From Candidatus Gastranaerophilales bacterium (GTDB lineage: Bacteria > Cyanobacteriota > Vampirovibrionia > Gastranaerophilales > Gastranaerophilaceae): DNA of 64,000 nt. The notes beneath the pieces were generated by a model, which was given only the letters and a program-made list of their open reading frames with translations, did not search any database and was not told the origin of the DNA. The position numbers and the translations under genes are program-made. The stretch covers positions 1 to 64,000 of the forward strand of contig CALUYZ010000006.1 in the NCBI GenBank assembly GCA_944325175.1, in the 5' to 3' direction. Shown here one piece after another: positions 53,100-64,000 of the stretch. Each line of letters begins with the position of its first letter. The stretch's first letter is position 1.

Positions 53100-53639
53100 A
53101 TGAATGTAGTACAACCTATAAAAAAGATAGAAGATATTCAAAAGATTAAAAAATATTTGGCAAAAAAGCCAAGAGATGCACTGCTTTTTAGTTTTGGGAT
53201 AAATACGGGACTCAGAATATCTGATATATTATCGCTTGATGTTGGGGATGTAAAAGGCAGAGATTATATTGAAATTAGAGAGAAAAAGACAAATAAGTAT
53301 AAGAAATTTCCGCTTAATAGGTTTTTAAAAGAGGAGATTAATTTATTTGTAGAAGGGTTGCCAAGTGAGCAACCGCTATTTTATACACAAAAACATTGCA
53401 GGCTTGATAGAGCACAGGCGTATAGAATTTTAAATAAGGCAGCACAAGCTGTTGGGGTAAAGGAAAGAATTGGAACACATACACTAAGGAAGACATTCGG
53501 ATATCATCATTATAAAAAATATAATGATATAGTACTCCTGCAAAAAATCTTTAACCACTCTTTACCATCAGTAACACTTCGTTACATCGGCATCGAACAA
53601 GACACAATTGATGAAAGCTACATGAATTTTTATTTATAG
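53100..53639 (+). CDS. Catalytic-domain-only tyrosine recombinase
   Basis: A 179-residue site-specific recombinase. The catalytic residues are all present: Arg39 (GLRISD), Lys near 63, His127 and Arg130 (HTLR), His153 (NHSLPSVTLR) and nucleophile Tyr162. The usual N-terminal core-binding domain is reduced to about 20 residues, so DNA contacts may be minimal or need a partner. It could mobilise the island or shuffle specificity genes. No attachment-site pair was identified. Confidence 0.88.
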   Translation: MNVVQPIKKIEDIQKIKKYLAKKPRDALLFSFGINTGLRISDILSLDVGDVKGRDYIEIREKKTNKYKKFPLNRFLKEEINLFVEGLPSEQPLFYTQKHCRLDRAQAYRILNKAAQAVGVKERIGTHTLRKTFGYHHYKKYNDIVLLQKIFNHSLPSVTLRYIGIEQDTIDESYMNFYL

Positions 53640-53664
53640 AATATACTTGTAATAAAATATAAGT

Positions 53665-54324
53665 ATGAAAACACAAGAAGAAATTGTATTTAAATCAAAT
53701 GGTTGGCAAGCTGTCAATAGGATTGGAATTTTGAATGAAAATTATCATACGCTTATTCTAAATTACAATGAGCTAAAAAGTGAAATTATAAATATTCAAA
53801 AATCTACAGATCCGTTTTTGTCATTATTTAACAATAAAAACCTTAATCGTTATCTTTTTAATTTTCTAGCCTCAACTACTGCTTTAATCGATTCTTGCAG
53901 GAATACAATGAAGTTTTATAAAGAAACAGATTTGTATAAAATATATGAAGATAATGTAAAAAAGTTATTTGCGAGAAACAAAGAAGCAATATTCATAAAA
54001 GATTTAAGAAATTATATGATGCATTTTAAAATAATTTTTCCTTGTCTTTCAAGTAATAATCAGGTCAGTTTCGAGGTATATGAGTTAAATCAATATAATA
54101 AATGGACATCTTTATCAAAAGAATTTATTCAAGAACAAGAAAAATTTGTTACTATAATACCTTTGATAGAAAATTATTTTAAAAGATTAGAACCTTTTTA
54201 TATGGAGATTTATTCAAAAATAAGAGAATTTCATCAAGAAGATTTTAAGGAAACAATCAAACTCGCTTCTGAAATTGGCATGTCTTTGCCAAATATTTAT
54301 TTAAAATTGGCATATAAAGTCTAA
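53665..54324 (+). CDS. HEPN-like hypothetical protein
   Basis: An all-helical, 219-residue protein of no named family that I can see. LRNYMMH (residues 114-120) gives R115-N116-x3-H120, the Rx4H motif of HEPN RNases, placed at the end of a long helix as in that family. An upstream helix pair (60-100) would complete the fold. It is 25 bases from the integrase stop and 94 bases ahead of the restriction-methylase gene. HEPN proteins are common toxins or effectors in defence islands; activity here is inference. Confidence 0.55.
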   Translation: MKTQEEIVFKSNGWQAVNRIGILNENYHTLILNYNELKSEIINIQKSTDPFLSLFNNKNLNRYLFNFLASTTALIDSCRNTMKFYKETDLYKIYEDNVKKLFARNKEAIFIKDLRNYMMHFKIIFPCLSSNNQVSFEVYELNQYNKWTSLSKEFIQEQEKFVTIIPLIENYFKRLEPFYMEIYSKIREFHQEDFKETIKLASEIGMSLPNIYLKLAYKV

Positions 54325-54418
54325 TTATAAATAATTAATGACTGGGATATAAATCGCTTTACAATTCATCATAATAAGAATTTTCATGCTAATATAAAAA
54401 TACAAGAGAGGGTGAGTT

Positions 54419-56785
54419 ATGGCTTTAAAACTGGAAGTGCAGATTGATGGTAATAAAATTTATTCTCCATTAAGAGATAAATGGCTTGTGTTAACACCGG
54501 AAGAACAAGTTCGACAAAACTATATTTGTAAACTTGTGAATGTATATGGTTATAGTCTTGATCAAATGCAAGAAGAATTAGTTGTTAGTAATTCTAGACG
54601 TGGAAATGGTAGAGCAAGAGCAGATATTGTTATTTGGAGAAACAAAGATGATAAAATCAATGATAAAATTGCTTTTATCGTTGTAGAATGTAAGGCTGAA
54701 CACGTAAAAATTTGTCAAGAAGACTATTATCAAGGACAAAATTATGCAAAAAATGTTGGTGCTAAATTTTTTGTTGCTACTAATGAAAAAGAAACAAAAT
54801 TTTTTAAAGTCCCTGAAAAATATCCCAATAGGCTTGATGAAATTATAGAAATTCCAAATGCACAAGAAGCTTGCAATGACTCTGATATTCAAAAAATATT
54901 GGCAAGAACAAAAAAATTCTCAAGAAAAGAATTCGCAGACCTATTAAAGAAGTGTCATAATATTATAAGAAATAATGATAAATTATCACCTGAAGCTGCA
55001 TTTGATGAAATTAGCAAAATTTTGTTCATGAAAATAAGGTATGAAAGACGTCAGGATACAGGCGCTATATTTACACTAGACCGGTTCAAAGAAGAAGAGA
55101 AATTTTTTAATGAAAAAATTAGACCAACATTAACAAATCCTAATGAGAAATCTTTGTCATATATGCAAAGAGAATTTATTTTGACCAAACAAGAATTTGA
55201 AGATGATAATTTGTTTGAACCTAATGAAACAATCAAAATAAGACAAAATAGTTTTGAATTAATCGTTAAAGAATTACAAAAATACAATTTATCAGACACA
55301 TCTGATGATGTTAAAGGTATTGCATTCGAAGAATTTTTAGGAACAACTTTTAGAGGTGAATTAGGGCAGTTTTTTACACCTCGTACAATAGTTGATTTTA
55401 TGGTAGAAGTTCTTGACCCTCAAGAAGGAGAAGCCATTTGTGATCCTACTTGTGGTTCAGGGGGATTTTTAATAAAGGCATTTGAATATATACGAGATAA
55501 AATAGAAAAAGACATTCAAAATACAAAAGAGAATTTTAAACAACAGTACTATGATGAAAACTTTGCATCAGCTTCAGACAAAATAACTGATATTGTTGAA
55601 CAAAAAGTAAGCAAAATATTCAGTAAATTAACAAATGAAATTATTGTTCCAAATAAGAAATTTAAAGAACAAAGTATCCAAGAAAAGTCAAGAAGAATTT
55701 CAAAATTATCATCAAGCTGTATATACGGTACTGATGCAAACCCAAGAATGGCAAGAACATCAAAGATGAATATGATAATGCATGGGGATGGGCATGGCGG
55801 TGTTCATCATCACGATGGTTTAATAAATATAAATGGAATTTTTGAAAATAGATTTGATGTCATTCTTACAAATCCCCCATTTGGAGCAAGAGTTGATAAA
55901 TCACAAGTATTAACAGAAATTGATAAAGATATAAATGTAAAATTAGATTTATCAAAAACCGATGATAAACATATAAAGGATCAAATAAAATTAATTAACG
56001 ATACTCAAATACAAACAAGATTGTTATATTATTATGAACGTTATGGATTAGACTATTTAAAGCAATTAAATAAGTTAAATATAGATATTGATAAAAAACA
56101 AAAAGTTCTCGATAGGTTTAAATTAGGTAAAGTAAGTGGCTTAACAGAAGTTCTATTTATGGAAAGATGTTTAAATTTGCTAAAACCTGGTGGCAGAATG
56201 GGAATTGTCCTTCCGGAAGGAGTTTTAAATAATTCTAATTTACAAAAAGTTAGAGATTTCTTTGAATCAAGAGCAAAAATTCTTTTAATTACATCAATCC
56301 CACAAGATGTATTTATAGCTTCCGGAGCAACTATAAAACCAAGTTTACTCTTTTTTAAAAAGTTTACTGAAGAAGAAGAAAAACAATACAATGATATTGT
56401 AAATCAAGTAAAAAAAGAAATTGATGAAAAATATAAAATTGAAATATTGGAAATTGATAATCAACTTTCTAATGATAAAAAAGCTCATCAAAAAGCATTA
56501 AAAGAAATTGAAAAACGAAAAGAACAAGAATTTGAAACAACAGGTCAAGAAAAAATTAAAGAACTCTTTGACTACCAAATTCCAATAGTTCAAGTTGAAA
56601 AAGCAGGTATAACAACAACTGGTGCAAAATGTGAAAATGAACTTGTTGATGTTGCAAATGAATTTAGAACATATCGTCAAGAAAATAATTTATGGCAAGA
56701 CAGTAAATTAGATGTTTCATACAAGCTTGTAAATGATAACTTGGTGCGAGTAATAAACGGTGAGGAACAAGTTATTGATGAATAA
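54419..56785 (+). CDS. BcgI-like restriction-methylation fusion subunit
   Basis: A 788-residue fusion. The N-terminus is an HsdR-N-type PD-(D/E)xK nuclease: Asp69 in RARADIVIW and Glu90-Cys-Lys92 in VVECKAE. From about 300 to 620 is an N6-adenine methylase with motif I CDPTCGSGGF (341-350) and motif IV NPPFG (485-489). The last ~150 residues are a charged helical region. There is no SF2 helicase, so it is not a type I R subunit. Nuclease and methylase in one chain with a separate specificity gene is the BcgI (type IIB) layout. GAGAGGGTGAG is the ribosome site. Confidence 0.82.
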   Translation: MALKLEVQIDGNKIYSPLRDKWLVLTPEEQVRQNYICKLVNVYGYSLDQMQEELVVSNSRRGNGRARADIVIWRNKDDKINDKIAFIVVECKAEHVKICQEDYYQGQNYAKNVGAKFFVATNEKETKFFKVPEKYPNRLDEIIEIPNAQEACNDSDIQKILARTKKFSRKEFADLLKKCHNIIRNNDKLSPEAAFDEISKILFMKIRYERRQDTGAIFTLDRFKEEEKFFNEKIRPTLTNPNEKSLSYMQREFILTKQEFEDDNLFEPNETIKIRQNSFELIVKELQKYNLSDTSDDVKGIAFEEFLGTTFRGELGQFFTPRTIVDFMVEVLDPQEGEAICDPTCGSGGFLIKAFEYIRDKIEKDIQNTKENFKQQYYDENFASASDKITDIVEQKVSKIFSKLTNEIIVPNKKFKEQSIQEKSRRISKLSSSCIYGTDANPRMARTSKMNMIMHGDGHGGVHHHDGLININGIFENRFDVILTNPPFGARVDKSQVLTEIDKDINVKLDLSKTDDKHIKDQIKLINDTQIQTRLLYYYERYGLDYLKQLNKLNIDIDKKQKVLDRFKLGKVSGLTEVLFMERCLNLLKPGGRMGIVLPEGVLNNSNLQKVRDFFESRAKILLITSIPQDVFIASGATIKPSLLFFKKFTEEEEKQYNDIVNQVKKEIDEKYKIEILEIDNQLSNDKKAHQKALKEIEKRKEQEFETTGQEKIKELFDYQIPIVQVEKAGITTTGAKCENELVDVANEFRTYRQENNLWQDSKLDVSYKLVNDNLVRVINGEEQVIDE

Positions 56786-58139
56786 TAGTGCTTTTTCATA
56801 TCTGAATTTTATTCACTTTTCACAGCTTAATCTTTGGGATTTTAAACGTTATATTTCAAAAGTTGTAAGCTCTAAATATCCTATTGTTAAGTTAGCAACT
56901 TTAATAAATGAAGAAAACAGAAAAATTAAGCCATTTGAATTTCCAGAAGAGAAATTTGAAATTCTTGGGGTAAATAATAAAACGGGTTTGTTTGATGCTT
57001 ATATAGAGGATGGTAACAAAATAAATCAGCCATATAAAATTGTTGAAAATGGTTTTCTTGCATATAATCCATACAGAATAAATGTTGGTTCAATAGGATT
57101 AAAAACAAAAGAACAAAAATATAAATACATAAGTCCTGCTTATGTTGTTTTTAGCTGTAAAAAAGATTTATTACCTGAATTTTTGTACATTCTCTTTAGA
57201 ACAGATAAATTTAATGAGCTAATAAGAGAAAATACAACAGGTTCTGTTAGACAAACATTGTCTTTTTCTTCTATGGGACAAATTCAAATACCTCTTCCCT
57301 TACTAGAAAAACAAAAAGAAATTGTAGATAGATACAATGAAAAAATCAAACTTGCAGAAGAACAAGAAAAAGAAGCTCAAAATCTTGAAGAAATGATTGA
57401 GCAATATATTTGTAGTGAGTTAAAAATAGTTAATACTTCCCCAAAAGTATCTAATGAATTTAAAATTTCATTTGTAAATTATAAAGATTTATCACGCTGG
57501 GGAGTTGAGTTTTTAAAAAATAATTTGTCGAGTAAAGATTTTTTGAAATCTTTAGTTTATCCTATGAAAAAATTGGGAACTCTAGTTGCTATAAATCCTG
57601 ACAATGATTTTTCTAAACTTGATGAAAATTTAGAAATGACATTTTTACCTATGGCTAGCATTTCTGATAAATTTGGAGAAATTGTAAATGCAGAAAAAGG
57701 TAAAAATGGCGATTCAAATGGATATACTAAATTTAAAGAAGGGGATTTATTGTGGGCAAAGATAACCCCTTGTATGCAAAATGGCAAGTCTGCAATTGCT
57801 AAAAATTTAATCAACAATCGTGGGTATGGTTCAACTGAATTTTATGTAATAAGAAATAAAAATGAAAATGAACTTTATTTTGATTATATATACCATCTAC
57901 TAAGGACAAAAATTATAAGAGAAACTGCAACAAAATATTTTACAGGCTCCTCTGGTCAGCAACGCGTACCAAAGAGTTTTTTAGAAAATTTGTCTATACC
58001 GCTTCCAGATTTTTATAAACAAAAACAAATATCTGATGAATTATATAAAATTAAACATAAAATCAAAGAACTAACATATACAGCAGAGCAAAATCGCCAA
58101 CTTGCTCAAGAAGAATTTGAAAAGGAGTTGTTTGAATAA
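56778..58139 (+). CDS. Specificity subunit of the restriction-modification system
   Basis: An HsdS-like protein of about 453 residues with two target-recognition domains (about 20-195 and 240-430), each followed by a conserved helix (EKQKEIVDRYNEKIKLAEEQ-type, then QKQISDELYKIKHKIKEL). Each domain reads one half of a split DNA site. The first domain has GSVRQTLSFSSMGQIQIPLP and the second GSSGQQRVPKSFLENLSIPLP, the usual family pattern. The start ATG 56778 lies inside the end of the methylase gene, behind GTGAGGAACAAG. It is required for both cutting and methylation. Confidence 0.87.
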   Translation: MNNSAFSYLNFIHFSQLNLWDFKRYISKVVSSKYPIVKLATLINEENRKIKPFEFPEEKFEILGVNNKTGLFDAYIEDGNKINQPYKIVENGFLAYNPYRINVGSIGLKTKEQKYKYISPAYVVFSCKKDLLPEFLYILFRTDKFNELIRENTTGSVRQTLSFSSMGQIQIPLPLLEKQKEIVDRYNEKIKLAEEQEKEAQNLEEMIEQYICSELKIVNTSPKVSNEFKISFVNYKDLSRWGVEFLKNNLSSKDFLKSLVYPMKKLGTLVAINPDNDFSKLDENLEMTFLPMASISDKFGEIVNAEKGKNGDSNGYTKFKEGDLLWAKITPCMQNGKSAIAKNLINNRGYGSTEFYVIRNKNENELYFDYIYHLLRTKIIRETATKYFTGSSGQQRVPKSFLENLSIPLPDFYKQKQISDELYKIKHKIKELTYTAEQNRQLAQEEFEKELFE

Positions 58140-58141
58140 TA

Positions 58142-59950
58142 ATGAAAATAAAAACTGGCTTTCAAGCTACTGCAAACATTTTTTATCATACTCAAAATGA
58201 TTTTAGTCTAATACGGCTAAAAGTTGAAAACTTTAAAAATTTAAAAAATATTGAAATAAATTTTAATAATAACCCAAATTTAACTATTATTATTGGTAAT
58301 AATGCAAGTGGCAAAAGCAATATACTAGAAGCAATAAGTGCAATTTTTACAGAAGTTTATACAAGAAAAAGGATTCAAAATTTTAAGTATGAATTAGAAT
58401 ACAAGTATCACAACAAAACATTAAAGATTACAAAACTACATGGATATATCCGTTATTTTGTTGGTGATATTCCTGTGTCAAAAAATTATTTTATAACAAA
58501 TGATTATATGCCTTCTAAAGTTATAGCCCTATATAGTGGTGATGAAACTAGAATGTGGGAAGAATATTATGAAAAGTTCTATAAGCAGTATTTAAAAGAA
58601 CTTGGTACAGGTTCTGTTCATTCTTATTCTAAAAAGTTGTTATATATTGATAAAAATTATTGGAATATTGCACTTTTAGTTTTATTAATTTCTGATTTAG
58701 AAGATCATAAAAAATATGTTAAGGAAAAATTACATATAAACAAAGTAGATTCAATAGAGTTTCATTTTAAGCCCGACAAAATTAAATCTTGCATCAATCC
58801 AATTTTGTCCGAATTTATAAAACAAATAAACCCAGAACATAGTAAAAGCGTTGTTTTAGATTTAAAAAATTTAAAAAAGAAATTAAACAAAACTCAAAAA
58901 ACAAATCAAGAAATATTTGAGATGTTAATATATGCAAATATGCCGAGAATAAATAAAATTATTACATCTATAAAAATTAATTTTAATAATAATTTATCAT
59001 TAAAAGTCTTGAGTGAGGGAGAAAAGAAAAGAATCCTTATAAAAGCTGTTATGGATTTAGTTGCAAATGAACGTTCTATTATTTTGCTAGATGAACCTGA
59101 TGCCCATATACATGAAATAGGGAAACGAGATTTATATAGATCCTTAAAAGAATATACTTCAAATGAGCATAGACATGTAATTATGACAACACATTCCCCA
59201 ACAATAACATTTGAAGCGGAAAATAGTAATATTATAATGGTTGATAACTCAAATGGCTCTGCTGAAATTATATCTAATGAAAGGAAAGAAAATATAAGAA
59301 GATTAACTGATGGTTTATGGACAATTCTTGAACAAAATATTGTGATAAATTCATCTAATCCTTTGATATTAGTAGAAGGTAAAGATGATGTAAATTATAT
59401 AAAACATGCATTAACAATATTTGATGATTATAAAGATATAAATTGCGATTTCTTACCATTTGGAGGTTCAGGAAATGCCAAGTATTTTATAGAAGAAATA
59501 AAAAATAATTTATCGCCAAATAAAAAAGTAATTGTGCTTTTTGATAGAGATGGAGATAAAGGGAGCGGTGGTGTGAAAGGATTAAAGGATTGTATAGCTC
59601 CTAGACCATCGGACGGTGGAATTAATGATAATAATATATATAAAAGGGATAATTTTTATTTTTTATTACTACCTAAAACAGATGAACATAAAGAAAAAGA
59701 CACTCAGTTTTTAATAGAAGATTATTTTTCTAAAAATTGTAAAATGCGGTTAGCTATCAATTTTGTAAAAAATAAGAAAAAGGTACTAAAATCACTTAAG
59801 GGACTTGATGAAAAAGTAAAACAAGAATTTTGTGATAAATTTAAAGAACACAGTACCGATTTGTGTTTTGAAGGCTTTAAGGTCTTACTAAACAAGATAA
59901 AAAATATCATTAAAGGAAAAGAGGAGAGTGCTGTTATTCAATTGCAATAA
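58142..59950 (+). CDS. OLD-family ATPase/TOPRIM nuclease
   Basis: A 602-residue protein with an ABC/SMC-type ATPase and a C-terminal TOPRIM nuclease. Walker A is GNNASGKSN (52-60), the signature is LSEGEKKR (290-297), Walker B is ILLDEPDAHIH (314-324), and the switch His is 351. The TOPRIM metal residues are E412 (VEGKDD) and D468/D470 (DRDGD). OLD proteins degrade phage or damaged DNA and are the core of Gabija and related systems. No GajB-like helicase follows. It starts two bases after the specificity gene, so it is part of that operon. Confidence 0.87.
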   Translation: MKIKTGFQATANIFYHTQNDFSLIRLKVENFKNLKNIEINFNNNPNLTIIIGNNASGKSNILEAISAIFTEVYTRKRIQNFKYELEYKYHNKTLKITKLHGYIRYFVGDIPVSKNYFITNDYMPSKVIALYSGDETRMWEEYYEKFYKQYLKELGTGSVHSYSKKLLYIDKNYWNIALLVLLISDLEDHKKYVKEKLHINKVDSIEFHFKPDKIKSCINPILSEFIKQINPEHSKSVVLDLKNLKKKLNKTQKTNQEIFEMLIYANMPRINKIITSIKINFNNNLSLKVLSEGEKKRILIKAVMDLVANERSIILLDEPDAHIHEIGKRDLYRSLKEYTSNEHRHVIMTTHSPTITFEAENSNIIMVDNSNGSAEIISNERKENIRRLTDGLWTILEQNIVINSSNPLILVEGKDDVNYIKHALTIFDDYKDINCDFLPFGGSGNAKYFIEEIKNNLSPNKKVIVLFDRDGDKGSGGVKGLKDCIAPRPSDGGINDNNIYKRDNFYFLLLPKTDEHKEKDTQFLIEDYFSKNCKMRLAINFVKNKKKVLKSLKGLDEKVKQEFCDKFKEHSTDLCFEGFKVLLNKIKNIIKGKEESAVIQLQ

Positions 59951-60087
59951 TCAATAAATGATACAAGTAAAATATTATGAGAAAATAATTATAATTTAAT
60001 TTTTGCTCAATAAGTTGTATTTAGTGGTTATTTAATAATAAAAATTAAAAGTTTGTTTACAAAATTTCAATTACAAAAAACTTTTGC

Positions 60088-60093
60088 TATAAT
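60088..60093 (+). promoter_or_regulatory. Extended -10 element of tcmP (leaderless)
   Basis: TGCTATAAT with the hexamer at 60088-60093, ending six bases before ATG 60100. A weak -35 TTTCAA (60065-60070) is 17 bases upstream. There is no ribosome site. Confidence 0.55.
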
Positions 60094-60099
60094 TGTCGT

Positions 60100-61335
60100 A
60101 TGAAAAACACAGCAAAAACACACTTTTCAGAAGAAGAAAAGAAACACACCAAAATAAAGCATGATTTATTTACAGAAGCTCTTAAAGCAAGTTTGAGTAT
60201 AGCAAATTCTTTGAATTATAAAGATAACTCGAATATTCCATTTATGTATATTGACCTATATGCAGGTGCAGGTAAGTTTTGCAATGATAAAGAGGGTTCC
60301 CCATTAATTGCTCTTAATTTAATTTCTGAATATTTAGATAAAAGATCTTTTGAGCATTTTGAATATATTGTTGCTGAGAATAACGAACATAATGCTAAAT
60401 GTTTGGACAAAAATATAGAGAAAAAAAGAAAAGACCTAAAAATAACAGATCGTGATTTAAAAGTTGCATTATATTGTGGGCATTGGGAAGATTTAATGAA
60501 TGAATTATCTGACTATGTTCAAGCTCGAAAATGGGGGTTTGTATTTGTGGATCCTTTTTCTCTAGAATTAAATTTGCCAGAATTAATTAGAGTTCTTAAT
60601 CATAATATTTATTATAAAGATATCATGATTTTGATTAATAAAAATGCACAAGAAAGAGTATTAGGTAAGCCGGAAAGCCCAGATATACAAAAGATATGTA
60701 AATATTTCGGAATAGAAGAAAAAGCGTTACAGCGATTAATAAATCATATAAAGAGAAATAAGAAAGGAACTAATGAAGATATTATTCAATATTTAACTAA
60801 AAAAGCTCTTCAAAATGTGGATAAAGATTTCAAAATATACGCTGGTATTTCAAGAACGCGTGAAGGGGAATTGGAAAATGCTGATCGTTTTTATTTAGCA
60901 TTATTAACAAGTTCAATAGGTGTCGCTGATAGCTTTTTATATAAATATTCAGAGCTGCTTGAAGAAAAAGAATTTAACAATAATGGTGGGCAACAAAGCT
61001 TATTTGACAGTTCCCCACAAACAAAATATACAAACTTAGAAGAAACTGTACAAAATATTATTTATCAAAATACAGAAATATCCTTATATAAGTTAACTAA
61101 AACATTGTTCAATGTTTTTCTTTCTTGGAAATATACAGAAGATAACGAAATTCCGCATCGGCGAGCCTTAACTGTCGCATTAAATAATTTATTAAGTCAA
61201 AAGAAGATTCAGTTTGAAGTAATTGGTAAATTGCCAACCGGATGTGTTAATACTGTTAAAAATAAAGTATTAGCAAAGGCTTTTAATTCAAAAGAAAATT
61301 TAAAACACATCAAGATTAAAGTTTTAAATGGGTAA
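60100..61335 (+). CDS. tcmP: Three-Cys-motif partner protein TcmP
   Basis: A 411-residue protein of the TcmP family, so named because it lies beside a three-Cys-motif (DUF5131/Gp37-Gp68) protein. DLYAGAGKF (52-60) looks like an AdoMet-binding loop and FVFVDPFS (147-154) like a methyltransferase motif IV, so a methylase-like fold is likely. The C-terminal ~130 residues resemble a winged-helix domain. It converges with the DUF5131 gene and overlaps it by 12 bases. The reaction is unknown. Confidence 0.82.
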
Positions 61336-62031
61336 TTCTTTCCATTGGCGACCTTGGAGAGTACATCCCGCTAGTTTTTTATTAACTCCACCCCATTGTT
61401 TAAAAAAGAATGGTATATTATGTTTTATGCAATTATCCCTTATAGATGTTACCCAGTTTTCTTGTATTGGGCGAGCCCCTGGTCCACTTTCACCACCAAC
61501 TATAACCCAATTTATATTTTCTAATGATAAATCTTTAATTTCTGTTATCATTGGTTCAATAGATAAATATTTGATATGTGCTGGTGTATTTATCAAATAA
61601 GGAATACGTTTTTTTTGTTTATCAGATTCAACTGTTACTCCTAGCCATATATTTTGTGTCCATTTAAGTTTTGGAGCTATGAGTTCCAATCTTTCTGCTC
61701 TTTTGGTAAGAACTTGAAAAGTATGCCAATGTGCTTTGTTCATTACCTCAAAAACTTTTACTATAAATTCATCAGGAACATTTTTATGAAATAAATCACT
61801 CATGGAACATACAAAAATTATTTGAGGCTTTTTCCAAGTTAATGGTTCATTAAGACAATCTTCATGCATAGTAACTTGAAAACAATTTTTATATTTTTCT
61901 TGTCCCATTGCATGTAAACGCCTAGCCATTCTTTCTGCATAGCAGTGTTTACAACCTTCACTAATTTTTGTACACCCTGTTACAGGATTCCAAGTTGATT
62001 CTGTCCATTCAATTTTTGACTTTTCTGCCAT
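61324..62031 (-). CDS. Three-Cys-motif radical-SAM-like protein (DUF5131, phage Gp37/Gp68 family)
   Basis: A 235-residue protein that starts [20 protein letters not shown]. The cysteines C20, C27 and C30 (Cx6Cx2C in [11 protein letters not shown]) are the family cluster motif. [25 protein letters not shown] and [11 protein letters not shown] follow as conserved blocks. The family is related to radical SAM enzymes. It is the known neighbour of TcmP and probably acts on the same substrate. The longer frame upstream adds only AT-rich codons; TATAAT at 62041-62046 suggests a near-leaderless start at 62031. Confidence 0.83.
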
Positions 62032-62040
62032 AATATAATA

Positions 62041-62055
62041 ATTATAATTATTATA
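62041..62055 (-). promoter_or_regulatory. -10 region of the DUF5131 gene
   Basis: Two TATAAT hexamers on the minus strand (62041-62046 and 62050-62055) lie 9 and 18 bases before ATG 62031. The outer one has TGT in front (extended type). No ribosome site is present. Confidence 0.4.
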
Positions 62056-62118
62056 CAAAAGTATTAAACCATCGTTTATATGAATTTAACTTGATTTTCT
62101 TTTAGTTTTGAGTGATGA

Positions 62119-62145
62119 ATACGACACCTAAAAAGGAGGTCGTAT
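62119..62145 (+). promoter_or_regulatory. Hairpin that encloses a strong ribosome binding site
   Basis: ATACGAC (62119-62125) pairs with GTCGTAT (62139-62145), and CCT with AGG inside. The AGGAGG (62134-62139) lies within the 3' arm and the ATG of an 11-codon frame at its base. This is the layout of an RNA switch or part of a structured non-coding RNA ahead of the reverse transcriptase. Confidence 0.4.
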
Positions 62146-62179
62146 GAGTAAAAGTAAAAATTCTAGACTAAAAATTTAA
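62144..62179 (+). CDS. Candidate 11-codon leader peptide
   Basis: MSKSKNSRLKI, directly behind the best Shine-Dalgarno in the island (AAAGGAGGTCGT). It is too short for homology. It could be a regulatory upstream frame, a small component of the system, or chance. It lies 129 bases before the reverse transcriptase start. Confidence 0.3.
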   Translation: MSKSKNSRLKI

Positions 62180-62307: not shown

Positions 62308-63462
62308 ATGATTAATCAATCTTTTGATTTTAAGCAGTTTAGGAATTTACAAAGACGTGGCGATATTTTTTTGCTTAAATGCGATAGTGATAATATAAAA
62401 AGAAAATTAACAGAATTGGAAATATTATTGCAAAATAATGTAGATAATTATGAATTTTCTTCTTTCAAAACAATTAAAAAAAATGGTAAAGTTATATATC
62501 TTTTGGATAAATGTTCAAATAATTTTATTTGGGATGAATTTATTCTTAGAAAGATTAATCATAATATAAAAAGAATTTATAAAGTTAAACAAGCTGACAG
62601 AAATACCATTGTTAACCAAATATTTAATATACTCAAAGAAAATCCGAATTATTATATTTATCGTTTGGATATAAGTTCTTTCTATGAGTCTATGGATCGT
62701 AGTAGAATTTTAAACAAAATTTTAGCTTCTTCTATTATTTCAGTTGAAACCAAAATACTATTACAGAAAGTTTTTAATCAGATAAAAGAAACTAGTGGGC
62801 TCCCTAGAGGGTTAAATATTAGTGCGACATTAGCTGAGCTATATATGAAAGATTTTGATCGTGATATTATAACTACAGATGGAGTTTTCTATTATGCAAG
62901 ATTTGTAGATGATATTATAATATTCTCTATACGAGAGTTGTCATTTGATTTTTTAAATAAAATATTAAAAGAACGAACTTTATTAAAATTTAATAATAAA
63001 AAGACCAAAATAATAAAAAGAGATGCTAATAAGCAAGATAGTTTTGAATACTTGGGGTATCAATATGTTACAAATCATGGTTCAACTAAATCTAAAAAAA
63101 GTAATATTGCTATAAATATTGCACCTAAAAAAATTAATAAAATTAAAACAAAAATAATTTATTCGTTATTGGATTATAAGAAGAATAAAAATTTTAAATT
63201 ACTAAAGAATAGATTTTTGTTTTTAACTTGTACATACCCAATAAAAACATTACACCAAAGAATATCACAATATAAAAATTCTGGCTATTTACAAGGGGGA
63301 TTATTTTATAATTACCATATTTTAAGTGATGATAATCATTCTTTAAAAGAATTAGACAAGTTTGTATGTAATATTTTATTTAGTAATAATATTTATTCGC
63401 AGACCTTAAAATTGTCACAAAAAAAAAGAATTAGCGAAATATTCTTTTACTATTGCATATAA
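62308..63462 (+). CDS. Reverse transcriptase resembling Drt3a (defence-associated, UG3-type)
   Basis: A 384-residue reverse transcriptase. Motif A is YRLDISSFYESMD with Asp121. Motif B is SGLPRGLNISATLAELYM (163-180). The catalytic FVDD is at 199-202 in YYARFVDDIIIF. The start (INQSFDFKQFRNL) and the DRNTIV-type block at 98-102 recall Drt3a. There is no maturase, IEP or HNH domain, so it is not a group II intron. A second RT-like N-terminus follows 68 bases later, which matches the two-RT layout of DRT3. The assignment is from memory of the family and needs a profile search. Confidence 0.72.
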   Translation: MINQSFDFKQFRNLQRRGDIFLLKCDSDNIKRKLTELEILLQNNVDNYEFSSFKTIKKNGKVIYLLDKCSNNFIWDEFILRKINHNIKRIYKVKQADRNTIVNQIFNILKENPNYYIYRLDISSFYESMDRSRILNKILASSIISVETKILLQKVFNQIKETSGLPRGLNISATLAELYMKDFDRDIITTDGVFYYARFVDDIIIFSIRELSFDFLNKILKERTLLKFNNKKTKIIKRDANKQDSFEYLGYQYVTNHGSTKSKKSNIAINIAPKKINKIKTKIIYSLLDYKKNKNFKLLKNRFLFLTCTYPIKTLHQRISQYKNSGYLQGGLFYNYHILSDDNHSLKELDKFVCNILFSNNIYSQTLKLSQKKRISEIFFYYCI

Positions 63463-63530
63463 CAGAAAATTTACAAGAAATTATAATACAAAACTATTTG
63501 AGATTAATAATATTACGAGATGTTGGAAAT

Positions 63531-64000
63531 ATGCATAAAAAGTCATCCTTTATAAAAAATAATAAATTTGCACCTTTAATATCTGATGTTTTACCTTATG
63601 AAACACCGATTAAATTTTCAAATACTGGTATATATAAAGTATTAAGAAAAAATTTTGGAGAAAATTTAAAAATTTATTATAAAAATAAGGCAAGAGGCTC
63701 GAAAAGTCTCAAACCCCCTTGTAGAGTAAAAGAATTTTTTATAGAGTCTTATTTTCCCAAATATTTAAAAACAATTTGGGGCATAAATAATAATAATAAA
63801 AATAATTATTATACAATTCCTTACAAATATAAAATTAAGCATGGAAATAATAATTATAGAGATATGTCACTATTACATCCTATGTCTCAATATGAAATTT
63901 GTGACTTTTACAATGAATATAAAGAATTAATTATTTATAATACCAATAAAAGTAGTTATTCACTCAGATTTCCATATAAAGTTTCAAAAATAGTACATAG
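63531..64000 (+). CDS. N-terminal part of a Drt3b-like second reverse transcriptase (cut by window end)
   Basis: An open frame from ATG 63531 to the window edge, 156 complete codons with no stop. LISDVLPYETPIKFSN, SLLHPMSQYEICDFYNEYKELI and the SYSLRFPYKVSK block resemble the N-terminal region of Drt3b (UG8-type) proteins, which precede the RT palm. The palm motifs themselves are beyond the window. The frame is open upstream to 63435, overlapping the first RT, so a non-ATG start (for example TTG 63453) cannot be excluded. Confidence 0.62.
   Translation, partial: MHKKSSFIKNNKFAPLISDVLPYETPIKFSNTGIYKVLRKNFGENLKIYYKNKARGSKSLKPPCRVKEFFIESYFPKYLKTIWGINNNNKNNYYTIPYKYKIKHGNNNYRDMSLLHPMSQYEICDFYNEYKELIIYNTNKSSYSLRFPYKVSKIVH

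Follow-up and report, generated by a model that had tools for sequence, protein, structure and literature searches.

The two reverse transcriptase (RT) genes at the right edge of the window, which is the 64,000 bp stretch analyzed here and comprises bases 1 to 64,000 of a 100,474 bp contig (C6) in a 2.02 Mb draft genome that is 89% complete, can be identified from their sequences with high confidence as part of a real DRT3 anti-phage system, consisting of two RTs and a template RNA. The operon runs in the order drt3a, drt3b, and a cis-encoded noncoding RNA (ncRNA) that starts just beyond the right edge of the window. DRT3 is an already described type of system and this operon is a further member of it rather than a new type, but it puts a deeply divergent DRT3 into a nonphotosynthetic family of the Cyanobacteriota in which large samples show no other. 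Confidence that the operon functions at present in this genome is moderate.

The first gene, drt3a, which encodes a UG3 (class 2) RT, lies at 62,308 to 63,462 on the + strand and as assembled specifies 384 amino acids, containing the FVDD at residues 199 to 202 and the SGLPRGLN motif that had been reported from the initial reading; both aspartates of FVDD (D201 and D202) are invariant in the homolog alignment. Its best profile matches are Drt3a models and no other RT class (NCBIfam equivalog NF041747, 309 bits against a cut-off of 200; PADLOC Drt3a, E 7.8e-98), and the best solved structure is also a DRT3 protein (PDB 9z6y Drt3a, E 1.3e-36). As described, the second frame stays open as far as the edge of the window, with 156 residues visible when counted from the ATG at 63,531, and the prediction that these form the N-terminal region of Drt3b is borne out by the contig, where the complete UG8 (class 1) RT gene extends from 63,531 (63,531 to 64,000 in the window, + strand) to a stop at 65,564 and encodes 677 amino acids with a full RT palm (NGIPIGAEVSRIFAE, RYVDDYF) as well as a long C-terminal domain. 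The protein scores 545 bits against the NCBIfam equivalog NF041748 (cut-off 350), with the match reaching residue 702 of 703, and the DRT3 structures are its best PDB matches (26cz, E 4.5e-75; 9z6y, E 4.9e-66), which is sufficient to establish its fold. For both RTs the HMM scores are so far over the curated cut-offs that a chance match is ruled out. A TTG at 63,453 is an unlikely alternative start for Drt3b because its first 26 codons would overlie the Drt3a C terminus coded in another frame, and the ATG at 63,531 gives the short overlap that is usual in DRT3 operons.

A negligible probability attaches to the alternative that this pair of RTs is of some other DRT or Abi class and only resembles DRT3. 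The Drt3b palm does match the Drt6, AbiP2, and Drt4 models as well (E 2e-44 to 5e-33), but the PADLOC Drt3b model, at E 4e-162, is ahead of the next class, Drt6 at 2e-44, by more than 100 orders of magnitude, the Drt3a model leads by more than 60, and the matches are full length and over the equivalog cut-offs. The HMM ranking, together with the presence of DRT3-specific residues and an RNA template, rules such a class out. Assignment of the first protein to a different RT class and a second frame ending without a palm domain, the two outcomes that the original prediction had named as telling against it, were both looked for and neither was found.

A comparator is available in the E. coli DRT3 structures (PDB 9z6y, 9z6z, and 26cz; PMC13174585); the E. 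coli system is also the subject of Deng et al. 2026, as cited in PMC13314766. In E. coli DRT3b, E22 and R241 select dA and dC, R71 tunes, and Y666 primes, as reported in 2026 (PMC13174585). Equivalents of all four residues, as well as the catalytic DD, are present in the Drt3b encoded here: E22 is the Glu of LPYETP, R71 the Arg of NNYRDM, R241 the Arg of EVSRIF, and Y666 the penultimate Tyr of the protein (...TPSYF). These equivalents were read from the alignment to 26cz, whose chain apparently has 108 extra residues in front, an offset adopted because E22, R71, R241, and Y666 then all land on the right letters. In a set of 104 Drt3b homologs, drawn from genomes, plasmids, and viral contigs, both catalytic Asp residues are invariant, R241 is conserved in 104, Y666 in 103, and R71 in 102, and the E22 position is occupied by Glu in 94 and by Asp in 8. 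Co-variation between template and gate was sought among these homologs and none was found, with the E22D, E22H, and R71N/T homologs all keeping AC templates. One natural gate variant is the Moraxella caprae locus (L024, 4278 to 6462), in which Drt3b has His at the E22 gate and an AC-repeat template lies downstream.

The predicted ncRNA occupies contig positions 65,578 to 65,709 on the + strand and forms a multiloop closed by the helix UGUGCGU/GCGCACA, with a 14-bp hairpin on its 3' side (65,710 to 65,741, + strand). The putative template, ACACAC, is at 65,693 to 65,698 (+ strand), 128 nt past the drt3b stop, and the CACACAC containing it is unpaired in the predicted multiloop and adjoins the 3' strand of the 7-bp closing helix. 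The 205 nt 3' of drt3b fold at -62.3 kcal/mol (z -6.5), a stability reached by none of 200 shuffles. At this one locus the ACACAC motif is weak evidence by itself (p about 0.045), and the case for the ncRNA therefore rests on position, fold, and conservation jointly. An AC-repeat template is found 3' of drt3b in all 104 homologs examined; in 101 of these loci ACACAC is within 265 nt of the stop, where dinucleotide shuffles predict 5.9, and in the remaining three the AC repeat is slightly farther off or one letter shorter. Of the 53 loci whose template lies over 80 nt past the stop, 31 have it fully unpaired with an enclosing helix of at least 5 pairs, compared with 16 of 265 shuffled controls. 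An Rfam search of the region gave no matching family, and RNA architecture was compared between loci by folding, the nearest relative being too distant for reliable RNA sequence alignment. A compact DRT3 RNA is seen in L080, L032, L038, L027, and about 45 additional loci, which make up a large clade of the tree; its AC template is mostly 24 to 90 nt past the drt3b stop and in many loci is flanked by short GCGC arms, together with a single conserved hairpin (AATGGCTGT..GCAGC). The group to which the window belongs differs in having a multi-hairpin RNA.

Taken with the published E. coli work, these features make it very probable that the operon is an anti-phage DRT3 with an E. coli-like mechanism by homology. 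By analogy, Drt3a would use the exposed ACACAC of the ncRNA as the template for poly(dTdG), and Drt3b, primed by its own penultimate Tyr and with its product gated by the conserved Glu and Arg residues, would make poly(dCdA) from its own active site and without a nucleic-acid template. The two strands would then anneal to give a repeat dsDNA, which would arrest the infected cell when host nucleases fail to clear it; the products, the dsDNA, and the abortive outcome are here carried over from E. coli (PMC13174585), and the gene identity, gene order, conserved residues, and predicted RNA with its exposed template are those of the present locus. The retention of the AC template and the Drt3b gates across 104 loci in several phyla supports the view that DRT3 in general may have one fixed product, poly(TG)/poly(CA).

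The system shares with E. coli DRT3 the gene order, the RT catalytic residues, the four Drt3b equivalents, and an exposed ACACAC beside the closing helix of the ncRNA; the published E. coli template lies in a loop beside stem-loop 4 (PMC13174585). It differs in that the proteins are distant, being relatives only at the phmmer level, in the break at an A9 run in drt3a, and in belonging to a host lineage that is essentially without GreA. A 6:6:6 complex of Drt3a, Drt3b, and ncRNA is a listed trait of DRT3. An RT palm fold is also common to Drt4, Drt6, AbiP2, AbiK, DRT9, and DRT10, and the alphaRep-type C terminus is shared with other class 1 DRTs and the ncRNA template with class 2, but those systems have a single RT, other templates and products, and far lower HMM scores.

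In E. coli, DRT3 requires GreA and is restrained by RecBCD (PMC13174585). Of 60 family genomes sampled, GreA was found in 1; this genome, at its 89% completeness, gave no GreA match and neither did 58 of the remaining 59. Cyanobacteria are known to be without Gre factors (PMC7026648). Contig C28 has a frame for a RecB/AddA-like helicase with a C-terminal PD-(D/E)XK domain. Either the need for GreA is specific to E. coli, or the DRT3 of this genome works otherwise or not at all, and hosts without GreA thus offer a natural exception against which the reported requirement can be tested.

One important consideration concerns the end of drt3a. The original prediction took the first RT to be complete, and while its FVDD and SGLPRGLN motifs are indeed in place, the C-terminal tail as assembled is out of frame at an A9 run (63,419 to 63,427, + strand) that had been overlooked. 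Past this run the annotated frame becomes ...SQKKRISEIFFYYCI and then stops, whereas the +1 frame directly 3' of it reads ELAKYSFTIAYNRKFTRNYNTKLFEINNITRCWKYA and continues the Drt3a C terminus (ELAKYSFTIAYNRKF...ITRCWKYA, 63,428 to 63,538, + strand) to a stop at 63,538, overlapping the Drt3b ATG by 8 nt as other DRT3 operons do. Drt3a homologs end in a block, YSFxxGF...I...W, in which the Trp is kept in 96 of 98; the +1 frame tail fits this block and retains the matching Trp, and the protein as assembled is without it. The break bears on the function of the operon and not on its identity as DRT3. In a Desulfobacteraceae MAG (L044, 3233 to 4481) Drt3a is split by an in-frame stop, possibly a broken drt3a beside an intact drt3b.

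Within 77 kb, no coding homopolymer other than the A9 run reaches a length of nine; there are 61 runs of seven and 15 of eight. An assembly or sequencing error in the homopolymer, with the actual drt3a intact, has nearly an even chance of being correct: it needs the A9 run, which no coding homopolymer in the 77 kb exceeds or equals, to be off by one base, and it fits the good preservation of the coding sequence past the run, although the 15 A8/T8 runs in other coding regions show no evident break. It is rather unlikely, though by no means far-fetched, that the break is a real mutation of this strain that truncates Drt3a and leaves the system dead or dependent on Drt3b only. The exact coincidence with the sole long homopolymer would suit such a decayed DRT3 as well, and most or nearly all homologs conserve each of the positions F380, G383, and W406, which lie in the lost block; on the other hand, the out-of-frame tail is uninterrupted and still family-like and neither drt3b nor the ncRNA is damaged, which would make any decay very recent.

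Runs of about nine A are slippage sites of bacterial RNA polymerase, and it is conceivable but improbable that such slippage, or ribosomal shifting, bridges the break so that some full-length Drt3a is made. The needed frame resumes right after the A9 run and ends at a stop overlapping the start of drt3b, but no like break was noticed in the homologs, whose frame stays open into the C-terminal block in almost every case. A more elaborate form, in which a Gre-less RNA polymerase slipping on the A9 run sets the Drt3a output as a mix of full-length and truncated protein, is very unlikely; if true, it would mean that slippage tunes DRT3 toxicity in a host without GreA, the factor that E. coli DRT3 requires.

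The suggestion that this operon extends the range of DRT3 holds in part. Pseudomonadota and Bacteroidota already carry DRT3 widely and several further phyla also have it, but in overlapping samples of 386 genomes from the phylum, 382 from the class, and 239 from the family, a Drt3b above the cut-off or matching over its full length was found only in this genome. The other Drt3b-like matches in the phylum fall below the cut-off and are different class 1 RTs. Viral contigs gave no match to a single-sequence query and did give matches to an alignment query. Photosystem II proteins were detected in 63 of 146 phylum genomes and were absent from this genome and the listed members of its family, with Synechococcus the only control genome to match, a pattern that places the host in the Cyanobacteriota and in a nonphotosynthetic family, probably Gastranaerophilaceae or one near it.

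In the trees, Drt3b and Drt3a each pair, on long branches, with the same locus from an uncultured Alphaproteobacteria MAG (L018, CALXMS010000003.1; SH-aLRT 99% and 98%, respectively), indicating that drt3a and drt3b travel together and that the operon was probably acquired by transfer. The flanks of the contig match genomes of sister genera at about 87 to 93%, and the contig itself is therefore not foreign. L018 is the closest relative of both RTs, at about 40% identity for Drt3a and 38% for Drt3b (best segment), and it has the same AATGCACACAC...GA around the template and a 7-bp closing helix that can be drawn at the same place. It differs in its phylum, in having the drt3a C terminus in frame, and in that the free fold of its RNA does not itself pick the closing helix.

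The dense defense island that had been described around the RT pair is confirmed by the neighboring defense genes. The operon sits between two copies of a repeat of about 50 bp, of which the left (62,107 to 62,160, + strand) holds the RBS and start of a small gene, shortened to an 11-codon ORF, and the right (contig positions 65,820 to 65,874, past the window) is the start of the small gene. In sister genomes the same small-gene start is found directly 3' of other defense modules, namely type I restriction systems, a Septu-like PtuA/PtuB pair with a type I system, and a Dcm-Vsr pair. The repeat flanks and the different modules at one gene start indicate that the operon is one cassette in an exchange site, and comparison with the sister genomes thus marks the locus as a defense hotspot of the lineage. 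The hotspot spans window positions 53,100 to 62,058 and contig positions 66,849 to 72,041, bounded on the left by a tyrosine-recombinase gene (53,100 to 53,639; 91% identical to G110 at the DNA level), while Mu/Tn-like transposase and AAA genes mark its right limit, and its cargo varies between sister genomes. At 54,419 to 59,950, methylase and specificity genes of type I precede an AAA/TOPRIM-type ATPase (PtuA-like, E 4.5e-51; also mad3-like), and no HsdR gene was found between them; the set is possibly a methylation-linked defense rather than classical restriction. At 60,100 to 62,058, a TcmP-like (three-Cys-motif partner) gene and a DUF5131 gene lie on opposite strands and match the PADLOC candidate pairs PDC-M30/M41.
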